Of a DNA stretch of 64,000 bases, positions 52,891 to 64,000 are shown one piece after another (position 1 is the first letter of the stretch; every line of letters begins with the position of its first letter). A program made the translations under genes and the position numbers. The notes under the pieces are model-generated. The model searched no databases. It worked only from the letters and a program-made list of their open reading frames with translations, and had not been told where the DNA came from. Source of the stretch: Halobacterium hubeiense (lineage in GTDB: Archaea > Halobacteriota > Halobacteria > Halobacteriales > Halobacteriaceae); contig NZ_LN831303.1 in the NCBI RefSeq assembly GCF_001488575.1, positions 62,001-126,000 on the forward strand, given 5' to 3'.

Positions 52891-53805
52891 ATGTCTGATT
52901 CAACTACTGATCCGTGGGCTGAAAGCACACTGTTTGACCAAGAAGAACTGCTGGACCACGTTTTCGAAGTCGAAAGCTGGCAATTCCAGAGCTTAGAGGT
53001 CTCTACCTATTGCATCAAGCCCGGCATGGGAACGTTAGATGATGCGGCGTTTATCCAGTTCCTAGGGCGTAAATACCCATATTTCGTCTTTCCAGAAGAT
53101 GAGGTCGATGACTATGATTTCCCGTATCGAGAGGCTCAGCGTCGAGCGGACTTCGATGAAGATTCAAAATACGACGGAAAACTTGGCGAGTTAGTTCTCT
53201 TCGTACTCGTCGATGCTCTTCTTGATTTGCCGTTAGTCAGCCATAAAATCGGGCTGATGCAGGAGCCGGTACAAGATCAGAAAGGGGCAGACGCTCTGTT
53301 CTATGGCCTGTATGATGGAAATGAGGCCCTCGGTGTGGGGGAGGCAAAAATCTACACAAGGAAGAGTCAGGGTATCGACAGCGCCTTCGAGAGTACCGAT
53401 CGCTTCCACGGTGCTCAGGGTGACGCGAAAACACGCCATGAACTCCGTGTAGCTCGGAATAATCTGAGTGCAAATCTCGACGAAGATCAATTCAAACGCC
53501 TCTTAGACGTGTTTTCCCCTGGGAAAAGCCAGCATCTGCATGTCCATCCTATTTTCCTGGGATATCAAGCGGACTGGCTTACCGAGAAACAGAAGGAGTG
53601 TAACTCACCACAGGAGTTAGAAGAGGAGATCGTGACCGAAATAAAAGATTCAGAAATACAAAAAGATGTCCAAGAGTCTTTGTCAGAGGACTATCCCAAC
53701 CTTGAGAAGTACGAGACCGTCTTCATGCTATTCCCGCTAGAAGATGTTGACGAGTTCCGTGAACGGTTACAGGAAGAAATCTTCCCCCACAGCGTTAATC
53801 ACTAA
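52891..53805 (+). CDS. hamA: Hachiman nuclease subunit HamA (DUF1837)
   Basis: The 304-residue protein shows the DUF1837 core: KLGELVLFVLVDALLDLPLVS (about residues 97-117), then KGADALFYGLYDGNEALGVGEAKIY with Asp134, Glu151 and Lys153 as the D...E-x-K nuclease triad, and THELRVARNNL-like helices after it. HamA is the nuclease partner of the helicase HamB in the Hachiman antiphage system, where it cuts DNA when HamB finds damaged or unusual DNA. Its stop shares one base with the hamB start (TAATG). Codon use is much less GC-rich than the chromosome, a sign of transfer. Confidence 0.88.
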   Translation: MSDSTTDPWAESTLFDQEELLDHVFEVESWQFQSLEVSTYCIKPGMGTLDDAAFIQFLGRKYPYFVFPEDEVDDYDFPYREAQRRADFDEDSKYDGKLGELVLFVLVDALLDLPLVSHKIGLMQEPVQDQKGADALFYGLYDGNEALGVGEAKIYTRKSQGIDSAFESTDRFHGAQGDAKTRHELRVARNNLSANLDEDQFKRLLDVFSPGKSQHLHVHPIFLGYQADWLTEKQKECNSPQELEEEIVTEIKDSEIQKDVQESLSEDYPNLEKYETVFMLFPLEDVDEFRERLQEEIFPHSVNH

Positions 53806-56408
53806 TGGACACGTATTCAGTCGCTGCTGAGCTTGAATCGTTCAACCGCTGTCTGGACCAGATGGCGGAGAACCTCATAAGGGATGATCTGGGCGTAAGG
53901 GAGACGGGTGGTTTATCTAATTGGGGAAATCAGACGATATCCCCACATGGTGACCTAACCCAAGAAAATGTGGAGAAGAGTGCGTGGGTGGCGTCATTTC
54001 TAGCTTCTAGTGATGATTCAGAACATAAACGGAAGGCCCTCGCATTCGGTATTCTATCGTATCTACACTATAATGATACGGAATATGAGGAGATGTATGA
54101 GCGGTATCTGTATATCATCCTTTCTCGTGTTGGCAATCTTCCCGCGTTTAGAAACGTGAAGCGGTCCGAGAGTCGTGTAAATTTCAAAGCAGACCTCATT
54201 CATTCGTTAGACTCCGTTTTGGGAACAGAGCTCGGCACCAATTCCAGTCGGTACAGCCTTGAGAATGGAGATGTTCTCTCCGAATTTCAGAAGGAAATCT
54301 ATGAGCATCTCCTTGCGGGAAGAAACGTGGCTATCTCAGGACCAACATCGGCAGGTAAATCCTTCATATTGCGGAGGTATATTGAGGAAATGGCGAGACA
54401 GCCTGGTAACTTTGAAGTCATCTATGTTGTTCCAACAAGGGCTTTAATTTCTGAGGTTAGTCAGAAACTCACGGATTTGAACGACTCGCTGGATAGTCCC
54501 GAAAACGAGTTTGATGTCCTCACAGGCGCACACTTCCCGGAGGATGAGGATAGATCAGATAACTCCTTCCTGGTGGTGACCCCGGAGAGATGCCTGAAGC
54601 TAATTGACCCGGATGTTCGGAAAGAGATTGACCCTAATCTGGTCTTCTTCGATGAAGTTCAAAATATAGAGGACGACGAACGAGGTGTCCTATTCGAGAA
54701 TATTGTTCGCTCGCTTGAAGACTACTATTCCTCAGCTCAAGTTGTCGCTGCTGGTCCTTATCTTGAGAATCCGCAGGAGACACTTGAAGATTTAACCAGT
54801 AACGAGGTTGCGGAGGTGAAGACAGGATTCACTCCCGTTCTGCAAATGAGGTGCGTGTTGAGGTTTATCAGCCAGAATCGGTCAAAGAATCGGAAGCTGG
54901 AAGTTAGAATACATAGCCCCTCTGGAAATATAGAGGAAATTGAGGTCCCCGAACCTGAGTCAATGACTTACTCTGAGGTCAAGGGGAATAAGAAGAAATC
55001 CTTGCGCAAAATCGTTCGCCGATTTGGATCGGACTCAAAGAATCTGGTCTATTCAAGCAGGAAGGACTATGCTGAGGATAGAGCGAAATATATCGCTCAA
55101 GATAAAGAAAAGCAGACCTCTTCTGAGGAACTTGATGACTTAATCAATTTCCTAGAAGAGACGATCCATGAAGACTACTCTCTCATCGACTGTCTGCAAC
55201 GAGGCGTAGCGTTTCACCACGGGATGGTCCCCAAGATTGCGCGAGAAAAAATTGAAGAGATATACAGTAATCAAGCAGTCATCGATACCATAGTTACAAC
55301 TCCAACACTAATGCAGGGTGTCAATTTACCTGCGGAGAAAATTTTCTTGGTAAGCTCAAACCGGGGTCAGAATGAACTGAGCGACTTTGAATTCGGGAAC
55401 CTCATCGGTCGAGTAGGACGGATTGACACTAAACTCTACGGGGCGATCTACTGTATCGAGGGTGAAGATGAAGAGTGGGCAGACAATAAGCTCGAGAATA
55501 CTGGTGACAAGGCGGTTGAGCCTGCGACAAATCAGGCTGTGGATGATTCAGATGAACTTATTAATGCCTTACAGCAGGAAGATCTGGGCTCGGTTGAAGA
55601 GCCCTCTGTCAAGTACACCTCCGTCCTTCTTCGTGGAAGATATCTAAAAGACCAGGAAATCAGTTCATATCTATCTAACAAGGGAATGGAGGAGGGTGAG
55701 ATTGAACGGGTTAATAGCGCCCTAGAGCGAACACTATCGGATATTGAAATCCCTAACTCGCTATTACGCAAGAACCCGACTGTTGACCCAATAAAGCAGG
55801 ATATCCTATTTAATGTGGTACAGTCCAACCCCGAACAGTGGATTATCGGAACTAACTCTCGCGACTTTTCTTACTCTTCCTTTTTGAGGATTACGAGGCA
55901 GCTAAACAAGATTTTCAAGTTCACTAACGACGACGTAGCTGGCGTTGATCCAGAGCACGTCGAGACAGACTATGGGGCTCTTGAACCAATTGTAGTTACT
56001 GCGAATCACTGGCTTAGAGGAGATACCTATCACGCAATGATTGAGAGCCGTAGAGATGCTGAGAACGTGAATGATGGGAGCCTTGATAAGTCTATCCGGA
56101 ATGTTTTGGAACTTGTCAACACAGATATTCGGTTTGTATTAGTGAAGTACTACGGTATTCTCACGACTATCTTAGAGTATCTGGATTACGAGACCCCGGA
56201 ATGGATGTTGAACTTTGATCAGATGTTGGAGATGGGATCTATGGAATTCAACCGTATCCACTTGATGTCTCGTGGAGTGGATCGTTCAATTGCCGTCGCT
56301 CTTTACTTGCCACAGAGTGTTGACGACCCGGTTGCGTACCTAAACGAGAATAGTGGCCGGATTGTTCCCTTCCATAGGAGCCACTTGGAGAATCAGGGGA
56401 TTTTATGA
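53805..56408 (+). CDS. hamB: Hachiman helicase subunit HamB (SF2)
   Basis: An 867-residue superfamily 2 helicase. Walker A is GPTSAGKSFILRRYIEE (residues 179-195), Walker B is FFDEVQNIEDDE (DEVQ at 283-286), TPTLMQGVNLPAEKIFLVS and EFGNLIGRVGRID are later helicase motifs. An N-terminal region of about 160 residues and a long C-terminal part have no named domain. It is translated with hamA from overlapping codons, the standard Hachiman arrangement. HamB probably translocates on DNA and holds HamA inactive until it meets a target. Confidence 0.88.
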   Translation: MDTYSVAAELESFNRCLDQMAENLIRDDLGVRETGGLSNWGNQTISPHGDLTQENVEKSAWVASFLASSDDSEHKRKALAFGILSYLHYNDTEYEEMYERYLYIILSRVGNLPAFRNVKRSESRVNFKADLIHSLDSVLGTELGTNSSRYSLENGDVLSEFQKEIYEHLLAGRNVAISGPTSAGKSFILRRYIEEMARQPGNFEVIYVVPTRALISEVSQKLTDLNDSLDSPENEFDVLTGAHFPEDEDRSDNSFLVVTPERCLKLIDPDVRKEIDPNLVFFDEVQNIEDDERGVLFENIVRSLEDYYSSAQVVAAGPYLENPQETLEDLTSNEVAEVKTGFTPVLQMRCVLRFISQNRSKNRKLEVRIHSPSGNIEEIEVPEPESMTYSEVKGNKKKSLRKIVRRFGSDSKNLVYSSRKDYAEDRAKYIAQDKEKQTSSEELDDLINFLEETIHEDYSLIDCLQRGVAFHHGMVPKIAREKIEEIYSNQAVIDTIVTTPTLMQGVNLPAEKIFLVSSNRGQNELSDFEFGNLIGRVGRIDTKLYGAIYCIEGEDEEWADNKLENTGDKAVEPATNQAVDDSDELINALQQEDLGSVEEPSVKYTSVLLRGRYLKDQEISSYLSNKGMEEGEIERVNSALERTLSDIEIPNSLLRKNPTVDPIKQDILFNVVQSNPEQWIIGTNSRDFSYSSFLRITRQLNKIFKFTNDDVAGVDPEHVETDYGALEPIVVTANHWLRGDTYHAMIESRRDAENVNDGSLDKSIRNVLELVNTDIRFVLVKYYGILTTILEYLDYETPEWMLNFDQMLEMGSMEFNRIHLMSRGVDRSIAVALYLPQSVDDPVAYLNENSGRIVPFHRSHLENQGIL

Positions 56409-60839: not shown

Positions 60840-60992
60840 CTACTCCGGCTCGACGACATCCTCACACGAGGGACACTCTGCCCAGACGCCGTCAGTTCCG
60901 TCGTCTTTCGTGTATTCAACAAGCAGCCATGCGTGAGAAATTGGTTCGCCGCAGTTCGGACACTGACCAAGCGACAAGTCATCGGGAGGCAT
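60840..60992 (-). CDS. 50-aa zinc-ribbon protein
   Basis: MPPDDLSLGQCPNCGEPISH, then VEYTKDDGTDGVWAECPSCED and VVEPE. Two CPxC knots (CPNC, CPSC) give a complete small zinc ribbon of the type common in haloarchaeal genomes (I recall DUF7837). Probably a nucleic-acid or protein binder. Confidence 0.7.
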   Translation of the reverse strand: MPPDDLSLGQCPNCGEPISHAWLLVEYTKDDGTDGVWAECPSCEDVVEPE

Positions 60993-61188
60993 GCCTAGGG
61001 GGTGGAAGGAGCGTGTGACAGGTCCTTCACGTGGGGTTCATTCGGTTCGGATGGTAAGCCTTTGGCGGATTCGCTGGTCGTACACCCGCGGATTTCCGGG
61101 GATGGGGCTGGATGGGATATTGAAGGCCTTCAAGAGATTGTTCATGGATCGGGGTGTTGCTAGTTTCGCCGGGCGAAACATACTTTTC

Positions 61189-62472
61189 ATGCTGAGAGAG
61201 TGGCTAGGTGTGAATCGGCGGGCATTTCTCTCTAAGTTACGACTCGGAACAGTGGCTGCCGTCGGTGGAACTCTCGCAGGATGTTCCACTGGTAACGGTC
61301 AGGATAACGATCAAGATAGTCCGCCTGTAGACCGCCAGTTCAGGTATTTTTTCAGCGATGAGTCGGGGACGCTGGGGGGTGTTGGTGACCATAACCAGCC
61401 ACCAGATGACGTGAATGAGTGGCAGATTATCGAGAATACACGGACCGAGGATGAATGGCGTGATCTCCGATTAAACGACGTTGCATATGCTGAAGCATAC
61501 ATGGCCGGTGAGACGGTTCAACCAACAGACGGGACGCCTGGAACGCCAGCGGAAATCGTTACGCGGACACAAGAGCTGTACGAGGCGACTGACGAAACCG
61601 GTCCTGTCGCATTTACGAATGCGTTGATCGCTGCTGAGGACGAAGTCTCAAGTGCAGATTTCCCCGGTGAGATCGTCCCGAATATCGCAGAACACGCAAT
61701 ATCAGAACTCGGGTATAACTTCCCAGCGTATAGTCTCACTTCAACGCGGGCGGTTCATCCTGTATCAGCCGACTACGACGGTGTCAAGCCGGAGACAGTC
61801 CGGGAGACAGGCGTTGGTGCACCGATTGCTCCGGAACGGGTCGGTACCTTTGGCGAAATGCGGACAACCCTGTACTTGTTGATGTTCAAGGATAACGATG
61901 GGTTCCAAATACGGTACGTCAATCGGCCAGGATTCAGCCCCTGGTATTTACGTGATACACTTCGGAAGCCTTCGAAAAGTGTCTACCGGGAACCGCTAAG
62001 CAAGGATTACTTCTCCATGACGGGAACACAGGGGCGAGCACTCAAACAGTATCCCGAACACTTCGTCACTGCTCTGGATTACCGGAAGGCAGTAAAAATG
62101 CGCCAGCAAGGACTCCTCAAAGATGGAGAGTTCCGAAAAGCTCTGATTGGCACCCTATTATCGATGGTAGATAACGGGGGCAATGACGAGAGCATTCCCG
62201 CAGGAGCAGTCCTCGGCTGTAACGGTAATCGTGGCTATCAAATCGAATCGTTGACTCACGAGTTTGGCACGTCTATCGAGGACTTTATCGTGAATCCCTC
62301 ATCTGACCGGGCAGAGCAGTTTGTTGGACTTGGACGCGCGATATACTTGATATTTGAGACGGAATTTGGGGAAGATTACAAAGGCGACCCCAAGTTCGGC
62401 TACAACCAACCCCTCAAAATAACGGGAACCCTAGCCGCTCCCGAACTGTACCATCGCCCAGAACAATGCTAA
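61189..62472 (+). CDS. Tat-type lipoprotein of unknown function
   Basis: The start at 61189 gives MLREWLGVNRRAFLSKLRLG with RR and a lipobox (LAGC) at about residue 34. The mature 390 residues contain YLLMFKDNDGFQIRYVNRPG, ALIAAEDEVSSADFPGEIVP and AVLGCNGNRGYQIES, with no named domain. The polar, rather uniform composition and lower GC fit the accessory region. It is probably anchored on the outer face of the membrane. Confidence 0.7.
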   Translation: MLREWLGVNRRAFLSKLRLGTVAAVGGTLAGCSTGNGQDNDQDSPPVDRQFRYFFSDESGTLGGVGDHNQPPDDVNEWQIIENTRTEDEWRDLRLNDVAYAEAYMAGETVQPTDGTPGTPAEIVTRTQELYEATDETGPVAFTNALIAAEDEVSSADFPGEIVPNIAEHAISELGYNFPAYSLTSTRAVHPVSADYDGVKPETVRETGVGAPIAPERVGTFGEMRTTLYLLMFKDNDGFQIRYVNRPGFSPWYLRDTLRKPSKSVYREPLSKDYFSMTGTQGRALKQYPEHFVTALDYRKAVKMRQQGLLKDGEFRKALIGTLLSMVDNGGNDESIPAGAVLGCNGNRGYQIESLTHEFGTSIEDFIVNPSSDRAEQFVGLGRAIYLIFETEFGEDYKGDPKFGYNQPLKITGTLAAPELYHRPEQC

Positions 62473-63230
62473 CAGTCGTTGCAAATTCGAGTTCTGTATT
62501 CAGCGTGGACGACGCCAGCAGGCCGTTCCACGCCGACTTACTCGGTGATTCCTGATACCACGTCTGCGTTTTCAACTACTGCTAAACGAAAGGCCTGACT
62601 ATCAACACCTACCACGATTCCAATCCCACGGTGGAGTTTCTGCGCGTGCAACTCAGCGACACCCTCATACGAATCCTGAACCGAGTTGGTAGTGTCGTCG
62701 GCCACTGTCGGCCATCCACCCTGGCCGCCGAGGACTGCGTTGGTTCACAGGCACCTCACCTGGCCGACGACAGCCTCTGACAGGCATACACCATCCTCAG
62801 TGGTGTTTCCCTGCATGAAACCCAGCACCGACACGACATACTCCCGAGTATGTAGTCGATGGGGTCGTCAATCCTCCAAACAGAGTCCATTCGGCCAACG
62901 AAGAGTTAGGGAGTGGCGGAAATCTGTGGAGCAACCCCGACGTGGCCGGCGACACCCCCCGACCCAATTGCTCCGTGAGCCACCAATCAAACCACATAAG
63001 TTTGATTGGGCGAAAGCACTCCACTGTCGTCGGCCATGGCTGACTCGCCACACCAGCCTCTCCCGGTTTGAACCATCGCGCCAGCCCGCACCCAAGGGGA
63101 GTGGCCGACGACACCCTACCATCCTCACCACTCAGCAACCCTCCTCAGAATTGGCTGTACCAATATTCAATACGACAAGACTGAGTATCGAATCGTTAAA
63201 CATAGGACGGCATCGTGCTGTCTTCCACAC
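62473..63230. other. 758-base noncoding region with a 13-base motif in inverted pairs
   Basis: The motif GTGGCCGACGACA or its complement occurs at 62693-62705 (minus), 62760-62772 (plus), 62942-62954 (plus, one mismatch), 63025-63037 (minus) and 63101-63113 (plus). Two inverted pairs (62693/62760 and 63025/63101) can form large hairpins, with a single copy between. No convincing gene lies here; the longest minus-strand frame is not protein-like. A role in replication, recombination or control of the flanking genes is possible. Confidence 0.6.
62983..63009. repeat. 10-base perfect hairpin
   Basis: CCAATCAAAC, loop CACATAA, GTTTGATTGG. Inside the 62.5-63.2 kb noncoding region, between two of the 13-base motif copies. 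Confidence 0.6.
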
Positions 63231-64000
63231 ATGAACTGGTCCCCTCCCTCCATCCGAACTATCGCAGTCCTCCTGTTAGTCGTCGTCGGCGTCGTCCTCA
63301 GTTTCTCGTTTCACGCCTCCATGGACAGTGCAAGCGTCACGTATACTGCAACTGCCGTCGATCCCGGAGAGAACTCGGACCTAGTCACACGCGCAGCAAG
63401 GAACATCACCAATCTCGACGACCAACTCGCAGGCACGGCGACACAACACCAGCGACCGATTGAGAGAGCTGCAGCGACCGGCTCCTATACCGGCCGTCTC
63501 GGCCCAGAACTCGATATCGTCATCGACGATATCGAATCACCATACGTCTGGTACAATGACCAATACTACACGTGGACAATCTCGACTCAATCCGAAACAA
63601 CGAATGCGACAATCCGCATGCAGCCGACCGACCCGCAAACAGTATTCGAGGATGTCGTTCGCCCGGTTGCTGATGCACCCCCAGTAGTCAAAACCGCACT
63701 CAAGGAAGGCACAGCGACTGGCTTAACCGTCGAATCCGGGATATACCAGCAGAACGGCGAGTATTACGCCGTCACACCCGAAAACGAGGGGGCAGTGTTC
63801 GCCCAACTTGCGAAAGTCTTCGCCGGGTTTGTCCTGACACCAGTCGGTCGAGCGTATGCTGCGGTCGGGATCGGCCTGCTCGGGTATCGGTTCCACGAAC
63901 CAACGCGTGATCGCCCGTTGACCGGACGACGAGCAATTGCGGTGTCCGCACTCGCGATCCCGGTCGCACTCCTTGGAACAATTCTGTTCGAGACTGGGTC
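63231..64000 (+). CDS. membrane protein, partial (runs off the window)
   Basis: The frame starts at MNWSPPSIRTIAVLLLVVVG and has at least three helices: IAVLLLVVVGVVLSFSF near the start, FAGFVLTPVGRAYAAVGIGLLG and AIAVSALAIPVALLGTILF toward the edge. Between the first two lies a soluble acidic region (PYVWYNDQYYTWTISTQSE, TGLTVESGIYQQNGEYYAVT) that is probably extracellular. TTAAACATAGG lies about 27 bases before the ATG. No stop is reached by 64000. Family unknown. Confidence 0.75.
   Translation, partial: MNWSPPSIRTIAVLLLVVVGVVLSFSFHASMDSASVTYTATAVDPGENSDLVTRAARNITNLDDQLAGTATQHQRPIERAAATGSYTGRLGPELDIVIDDIESPYVWYNDQYYTWTISTQSETTNATIRMQPTDPQTVFEDVVRPVADAPPVVKTALKEGTATGLTVESGIYQQNGEYYAVTPENEGAVFAQLAKVFAGFVLTPVGRAYAAVGIGLLGYRFHEPTRDRPLTGRRAIAVSALAIPVALLGTILFETG

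Follow-up and report, generated by a model that had tools for sequence, protein, structure and literature searches.

What does a gene-free stretch of a haloarchaeal megaplasmid do when it carries the same short motif five times? The window analysed here, a stretch of 64,000 nucleotides (G000:C2:62001-126000), belongs to a 349,522-bp (349.5-kb) Halobacterium megaplasmid in a genome totalling 3.13 Mb. An earlier note had described, near its end, five copies of a 13-base motif in alternating orientation, with a separate perfect 10-base hairpin and no gene over 758 bases, and had suggested an iteron-like, recombination or regulator array, possibly at an element boundary. Much of that description holds. 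The gap runs for 758 bp between an open reading frame ending at 62472 and one starting at 63231, the hairpin is exact, and within the gap the 13-mer occurs at five sites: two are exact (site 1, 62693-62705, minus; site 5, 63101-63113, plus) and three have one mismatch (site 2, 62760-62772, plus; site 3, 62942-62954, plus; site 4, 63025-63037, minus). The orientations do not strictly alternate, since their order is -,+,+,-,+, but sites 1/2 and sites 4/5 each make up a clean inverted pair. A 12-base core, TGGCCGACGACA, is exact in four of the five sites, and the arms are close to GTGGCCGACGACA. We propose that the array may be a rare accessory structured noncoding element found in two Halobacterium species and probably working as a folded RNA, a reading to which we give something approaching an even chance.

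The motif is clustered. Allowing up to one mismatch, the 12-mer occurs five times in these 758 bp vs four times in the remaining ~62 kb of the window, and when the region was randomised 200 times under a first-order Markov model, the most frequent 12-mer had at most three sites. The sequence TGGCCGACGACAC is exact at only four places in the genome, two of them inside the cluster. The objection anticipated by the earlier note, that the motif might be equally common in ordinary coding DNA, did not materialize genome-wide: outside the cluster it appears as single occurrences, and those examined fall within open reading frames. The open reading frames that cross the array itself are not acidic in composition, unlike haloarchaeal proteins.

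Alignment of relatives, which had been proposed as a check, yielded one homologue and with it the paired arms. This single block homologue, found by blastn, lies on the chromosome of Halobacterium noricense JCM 15102 (G011:C1:1275100-1275416) and is a complete unit without the site 3 insert, matching window positions 62637-62772 and about 62955-63129; the window segment between those two parts is mostly unmatched by blastn in H. noricense. Gaps of 1, 2 and 6 nt in the two-sequence alignment break any common reading frame, and the conserved block is non-coding. The flanking genes at the two loci are unrelated, with no shared neighbouring regulator gene or gene order found between them, and no promoter or terminator common to both was recognised by eye.

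Because the H. noricense homologue shows pairing, the plasmid sites are read as paired arms: sites 1 and 2, and sites 4 and 5, form stems of 11-13 bp on either side of a conserved hairpin. The unit is best explained as a structured noncoding element of ~320-330 bp made of a long stem-loop, a short AT-rich hairpin and a second long stem-loop, and the 13-mer would be the sequence of the stem arms. On the + strand, the left arm of stem 1 (62693-62704, site 1 in minus orientation) pairs with the right arm (62761-62772, site 2) over 12 bp, enclosing a 56-nt loop with an inner hairpin (CGGCCA/TGGCCG, 62709-62727). The central AT-rich hairpin, CCAATCAAAC-CACATAA-GTTTGATTGG, occupies 62983-63009 (arms 62983-62992 and 63000-63009); its sequence is conserved in H. 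noricense, with 8 bp there vs 10 bp on the plasmid. Stem 2 (left arm 63025-63036, site 4; right arm 63102-63113, site 5) was placed from the motif sites and the two-species comparison, and has 11-12 bp and a loop of 65-76 nt. Loop sequences are also conserved between the species.

Pairing within each stem is conserved even where the arms have changed. The H. noricense arm pairs are TGCCGTCGGCCAC...GTGGCCGACGGCA and TGTCGTCGGCT...AGCCGACGACA; its arms differ between the two pairs (TGCCGTCGGCCA vs TGTCGTCGGCT), each altered together with its own partner only. In stem 1, a T-A pair on the plasmid is C-G in H. noricense, both arms having changed in concert. In the inner hairpin, where the placement of one 1-nt gap matters, A-T becomes G-C and two C-G pairs become U.G. 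Pair 11 of stem 2 is C-G on the plasmid and T-A in H. noricense, in an alignment-dependent way. Judged on these two sequences, the changes are compensatory, as would be expected of a structured noncoding RNA, with two of the three compensatory pairs hinging on the placement of one gap; covariation is limited to two sequences because only two genomes carry the element. Under independent changes, the naive chance of keeping full pairing is 0.06 for stem 1, 0.011 for the inner hairpin and 0.07 for stem 2. Since the arm changes are complementary and confined to pairs, base pairing is favoured over one common protein-binding motif: the differences track the partner rather than the motif. What has been kept between the species is complementarity within each stem together with particular loop and hairpin sequences. 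The arms could also have been held complementary by gene conversion acting on inverted DNA repeats.

Folding statistics point in the same direction. Alifold was run on the alignment of the two units after correction of the hairpin gap, the window row being joined across the insert; it gave z of -5.7 to -6.2 on the + strand and -3.2 to -4.5 on the - strand against column-shuffled alignments, with no shuffle as good. Folded singly, both + strands are stronger than their shuffles (z -2.2 and -5.0); on the - strand the window is stronger (z -4.4), whereas H. noricense is not (z -0.8). The wobble pairs function on the + strand only, where six of six pairs are kept vs four of six on the - strand. 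An RNA read from the + strand and folded into the stem-loops would be the most likely working form; that the element is transcribed, that this strand is used, and that RNA rather than single-stranded DNA is what folds, we infer from these patterns.

The plasmid copy also appears more complex than its chromosomal counterpart. A covariance model built from the window and H. noricense units has two matches in the window, and the array may be two tandem copies, of which the first has lost its 3′ half and the second has a 5′ half in decay. Copy 1 (62624-62797; match 62637-62801, 161 bits) comprises an A half and a short 3′-end piece, without the hairpin and B half; its A half is 75% identical to that of H. 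noricense over ~136 bp. Copy 2 (62798-63130; match 62882-63129, 186 bits), of full length, comprises a diverged A′ half, the hairpin and the B half. Its A′ segment (62798-62941) resembles the A half of copy 1 better than any of 1000 shuffles did and has no significant resemblance to the first half of the H. noricense unit. A tandem duplication of the plasmid unit, followed by loss in copy 1 and decay in copy 2, would account for such an arrangement. Site 3 would then form the right-hand side of copy 2's decayed stem, with a degenerate partner at 62885-62897: across 62885-62954, the CGGCCA partner (62892-62897) and site 3 can form 6 bp plus 3 bp, which is suggestive only. The overall inverted symmetry of A and B halves is significant in the window and not in H. 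noricense. A kissing interaction (TGGTTCA/TGAACCA) was considered and dropped, as it may just follow from the inverted likeness of the two halves.

The five sites might instead be a DNA-level array bound by a plasmid-encoded dimeric protein, such as a partition, regulator or nucleoid protein, with the motif as its recognition sequence. Four of the five sites carry an identical 12-mer, well beyond chance, the inverted pairs are similarly spaced (67 and 76 bp) and the position on the megaplasmid is intergenic. The regulator array of the earlier note is nevertheless weakened because the H. noricense arms changed in complementary, pair-specific ways; conservation of the loops and hairpin, and the separate gene neighbourhoods of the two loci, also speak against bound sites, and we consider this reading rather unlikely. 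Folded single-stranded DNA serving as an attC-like recombinase site would agree with the fold of the H. noricense unit under DNA parameters (z -4.1), yet a scan of flanking genes in both genomes recognised no recombinase gene except an IS transposase gene 2.9 kb from the H. noricense element, and there is neither a GTTRRRY box at the stem ends nor a cassette array; such a site seems very improbable. The structure might also be a remnant of a non-autonomous mobile element, either a fold-back MITE or a PATE moved by IS200/IS605 TnpA, that reached a plasmid in one species and the chromosome of the other; we consider this rather unlikely, to the same degree as the protein-binding array. Flanks that differ between the genomes, tandem and partial copies, and the palindromes that haloarchaeal PATEs carry near their ends (PMC3119063) are consistent with mobility. 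So are the repeat-rich surroundings of both loci: the first ~115 bp of the gene-free gap are a MITE copy outside the element (62469-62585, + strand), and a 53-bp IS605-end-like repeat lies near the H. noricense unit. However, the covariance model finds a single unit or tandem pair in each genome and no further copy in either, the conserved part is internal, and comparison of the unit ends by eye showed no terminal inverted repeat that the two share; no target duplication was identified and no empty site was recovered. The suggested element boundary holds in part, through the repeats that adjoin the array. The adjoining MITE-like repeat has imperfect terminal repeats (CAGTTGTTG...) and occurs seven times in the genome and once in each of two other Halobacterium genomes; the palindromic 53-bp IS200/IS605-end-like repeat (L023:8025-8078), 21 bp upstream of the H. 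noricense element, has scattered copies in most Halobacterium genomes.

Replication remained to be weighed, since the earlier note had called the sites iteron-like. An origin with ORB- or iteron-like sites around an AT-rich centre would fit the inverted sites that surround the AT-rich hairpin and a cdc6 gene 3.2 kb off (C2:128356-129531), or 8.9 kb off in H. noricense (G011:C1:1284320). Other genes, however, intervene over the 3.2 kb, the two cdc6 genes are just 36% identical, and each has its own repeats right beside it. The plasmid repeats, GAACAGCGGAAGCAGTGGGG, flank the gene on both sides, being inverted at C2:128004-128300 and present again, in part, at ~129640, and resemble the published haloarchaeal ORB, TAACAGCGGAAACAGTGGGGTGGGGGGGT (PMC3528665). 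Three Halobacterium relatives with a 95-96% identical Cdc6 keep these adjoining repeats (83-88% DNA identity over gene and repeat block), and none has the array, whose site flanks lack a consistent G-run or G-string. We rejected the array as an origin for the nearby Cdc6 because the gene, 3 kb from the array, has its own ORB-like iterons on its flanks, conserved in relatives without the array; the origin reading is accordingly highly improbable. Inverted motif clusters near cdc6 need comparison with relatives before they are called origins.

The region has further features of its own. The plasmid origin module (C2:128004-129653; L009:18004-19653) places cdc6 between inverted iterons (AACAGCGGAAGCAGTGGGG) and is directly adjoined at the gene by a CRISPR array of 49 exact repeats (GCTTCAATCCCACGAGGGTACGTCTGAAAC; C2:129752-132972), after which the genes (L010:3335-12432) resemble a type I-B cas operon. 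The window also holds, at 52891-56408, a Hachiman defence pair: HamA of 304 aa and a HamB helicase of 867 aa that scores 1027 bits against HamB1. Next to it come a weak Mrr-like match and then a Schlafen/AlbA protein. A segment of ~203 bp at 60900-61102 is 78% identical to unannotated DNA of Halobacterium salinarum plasmids (pNRC200), and ~120 bp of it is also similar to several other haloarchaeal plasmids. The product of the gene starting at 63231 (L009:15231-16265) is predicted to be a membrane protein of 344 aa and falls in no Pfam family; it has close homologues in differing gene contexts on Natribaculum, Halolamina, Haloplanus and Halocatena plasmids, and a link between array and gene was rejected because these four plasmids lack the array.

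The structured element is rare. Of 392 haloarchaeal genomes drawn from the whole order, covariance-model searches located it in two, and searches of two whole families (170 and 146 genomes) did not find it; its own family (26 genomes), searched with laxer filters, yielded the same two loci, one per genome. The large searches used strict filters, so weak relatives may be missed. Rfam had no match in the window at gathering, and at E up to 10 there were only sub-threshold matches far below gathering; blastn against plasmids and phages gave no convincing match. Several candidates were set aside. A 45-bp match (H19) on Haloarcula pHsi204 lies in C-rich intergenic DNA where the covariance model gives no score, a weak match of 19.7 bits in G306 was attributed to chance, and blastn matches of 22 bp in coding-like DNA of G342 and G031 look accidental. 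Exact-pattern scans of conserved pieces over viral and genome contigs returned chance matches only, in a Bacteroidales contig and apparently one coding region of two related viral contigs. As a separate observation, Haloarcula sinaiiensis pHsi204 carries three intergenic 56-nt direct repeats at 81-bp spacing beside an IS1595 transposase (L060:6364-6581).

We therefore return to the folded element. It would be a putative rare accessory noncoding RNA borne on plasmid and mobile DNA in Halobacterium. That it represents an undescribed structured RNA family of haloarchaeal mobile DNA, ~320 nt long with near-identical long stems around an AT-rich hairpin and arranged in tandem on the megaplasmid, is a possibility we hold with reserve. 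Should it prove to be transcribed, archaea would gain a new noncoding RNA linked to plasmid DNA, with H. noricense JCM 15102 as a cultured carrier. Among known systems, Orc1/Cdc6 origins likewise combine inverted repeats in intergenic DNA with an AT-rich centre on a megaplasmid and near cdc6, but the array is not beside that gene, has no G-string and is unrelated to ORBs in sequence. Haloarchaeal MITEs and PATEs are also short, non-coding, palindromic and at home in repeat-rich accessory DNA; the element differs from them, since neither dispersed copies nor a shared terminal inverted repeat or target duplication was found for it. Large structured noncoding RNAs of phages and plasmids, such as GOLLD and ROOL, are rare, several hundred nucleotides long and conserved in their pairing. 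Although the element has no Rfam match and counts two members only, it may resemble these RNAs in its rarity, its association with mobile DNA, its length of several hundred nucleotides and its conserved pairing.
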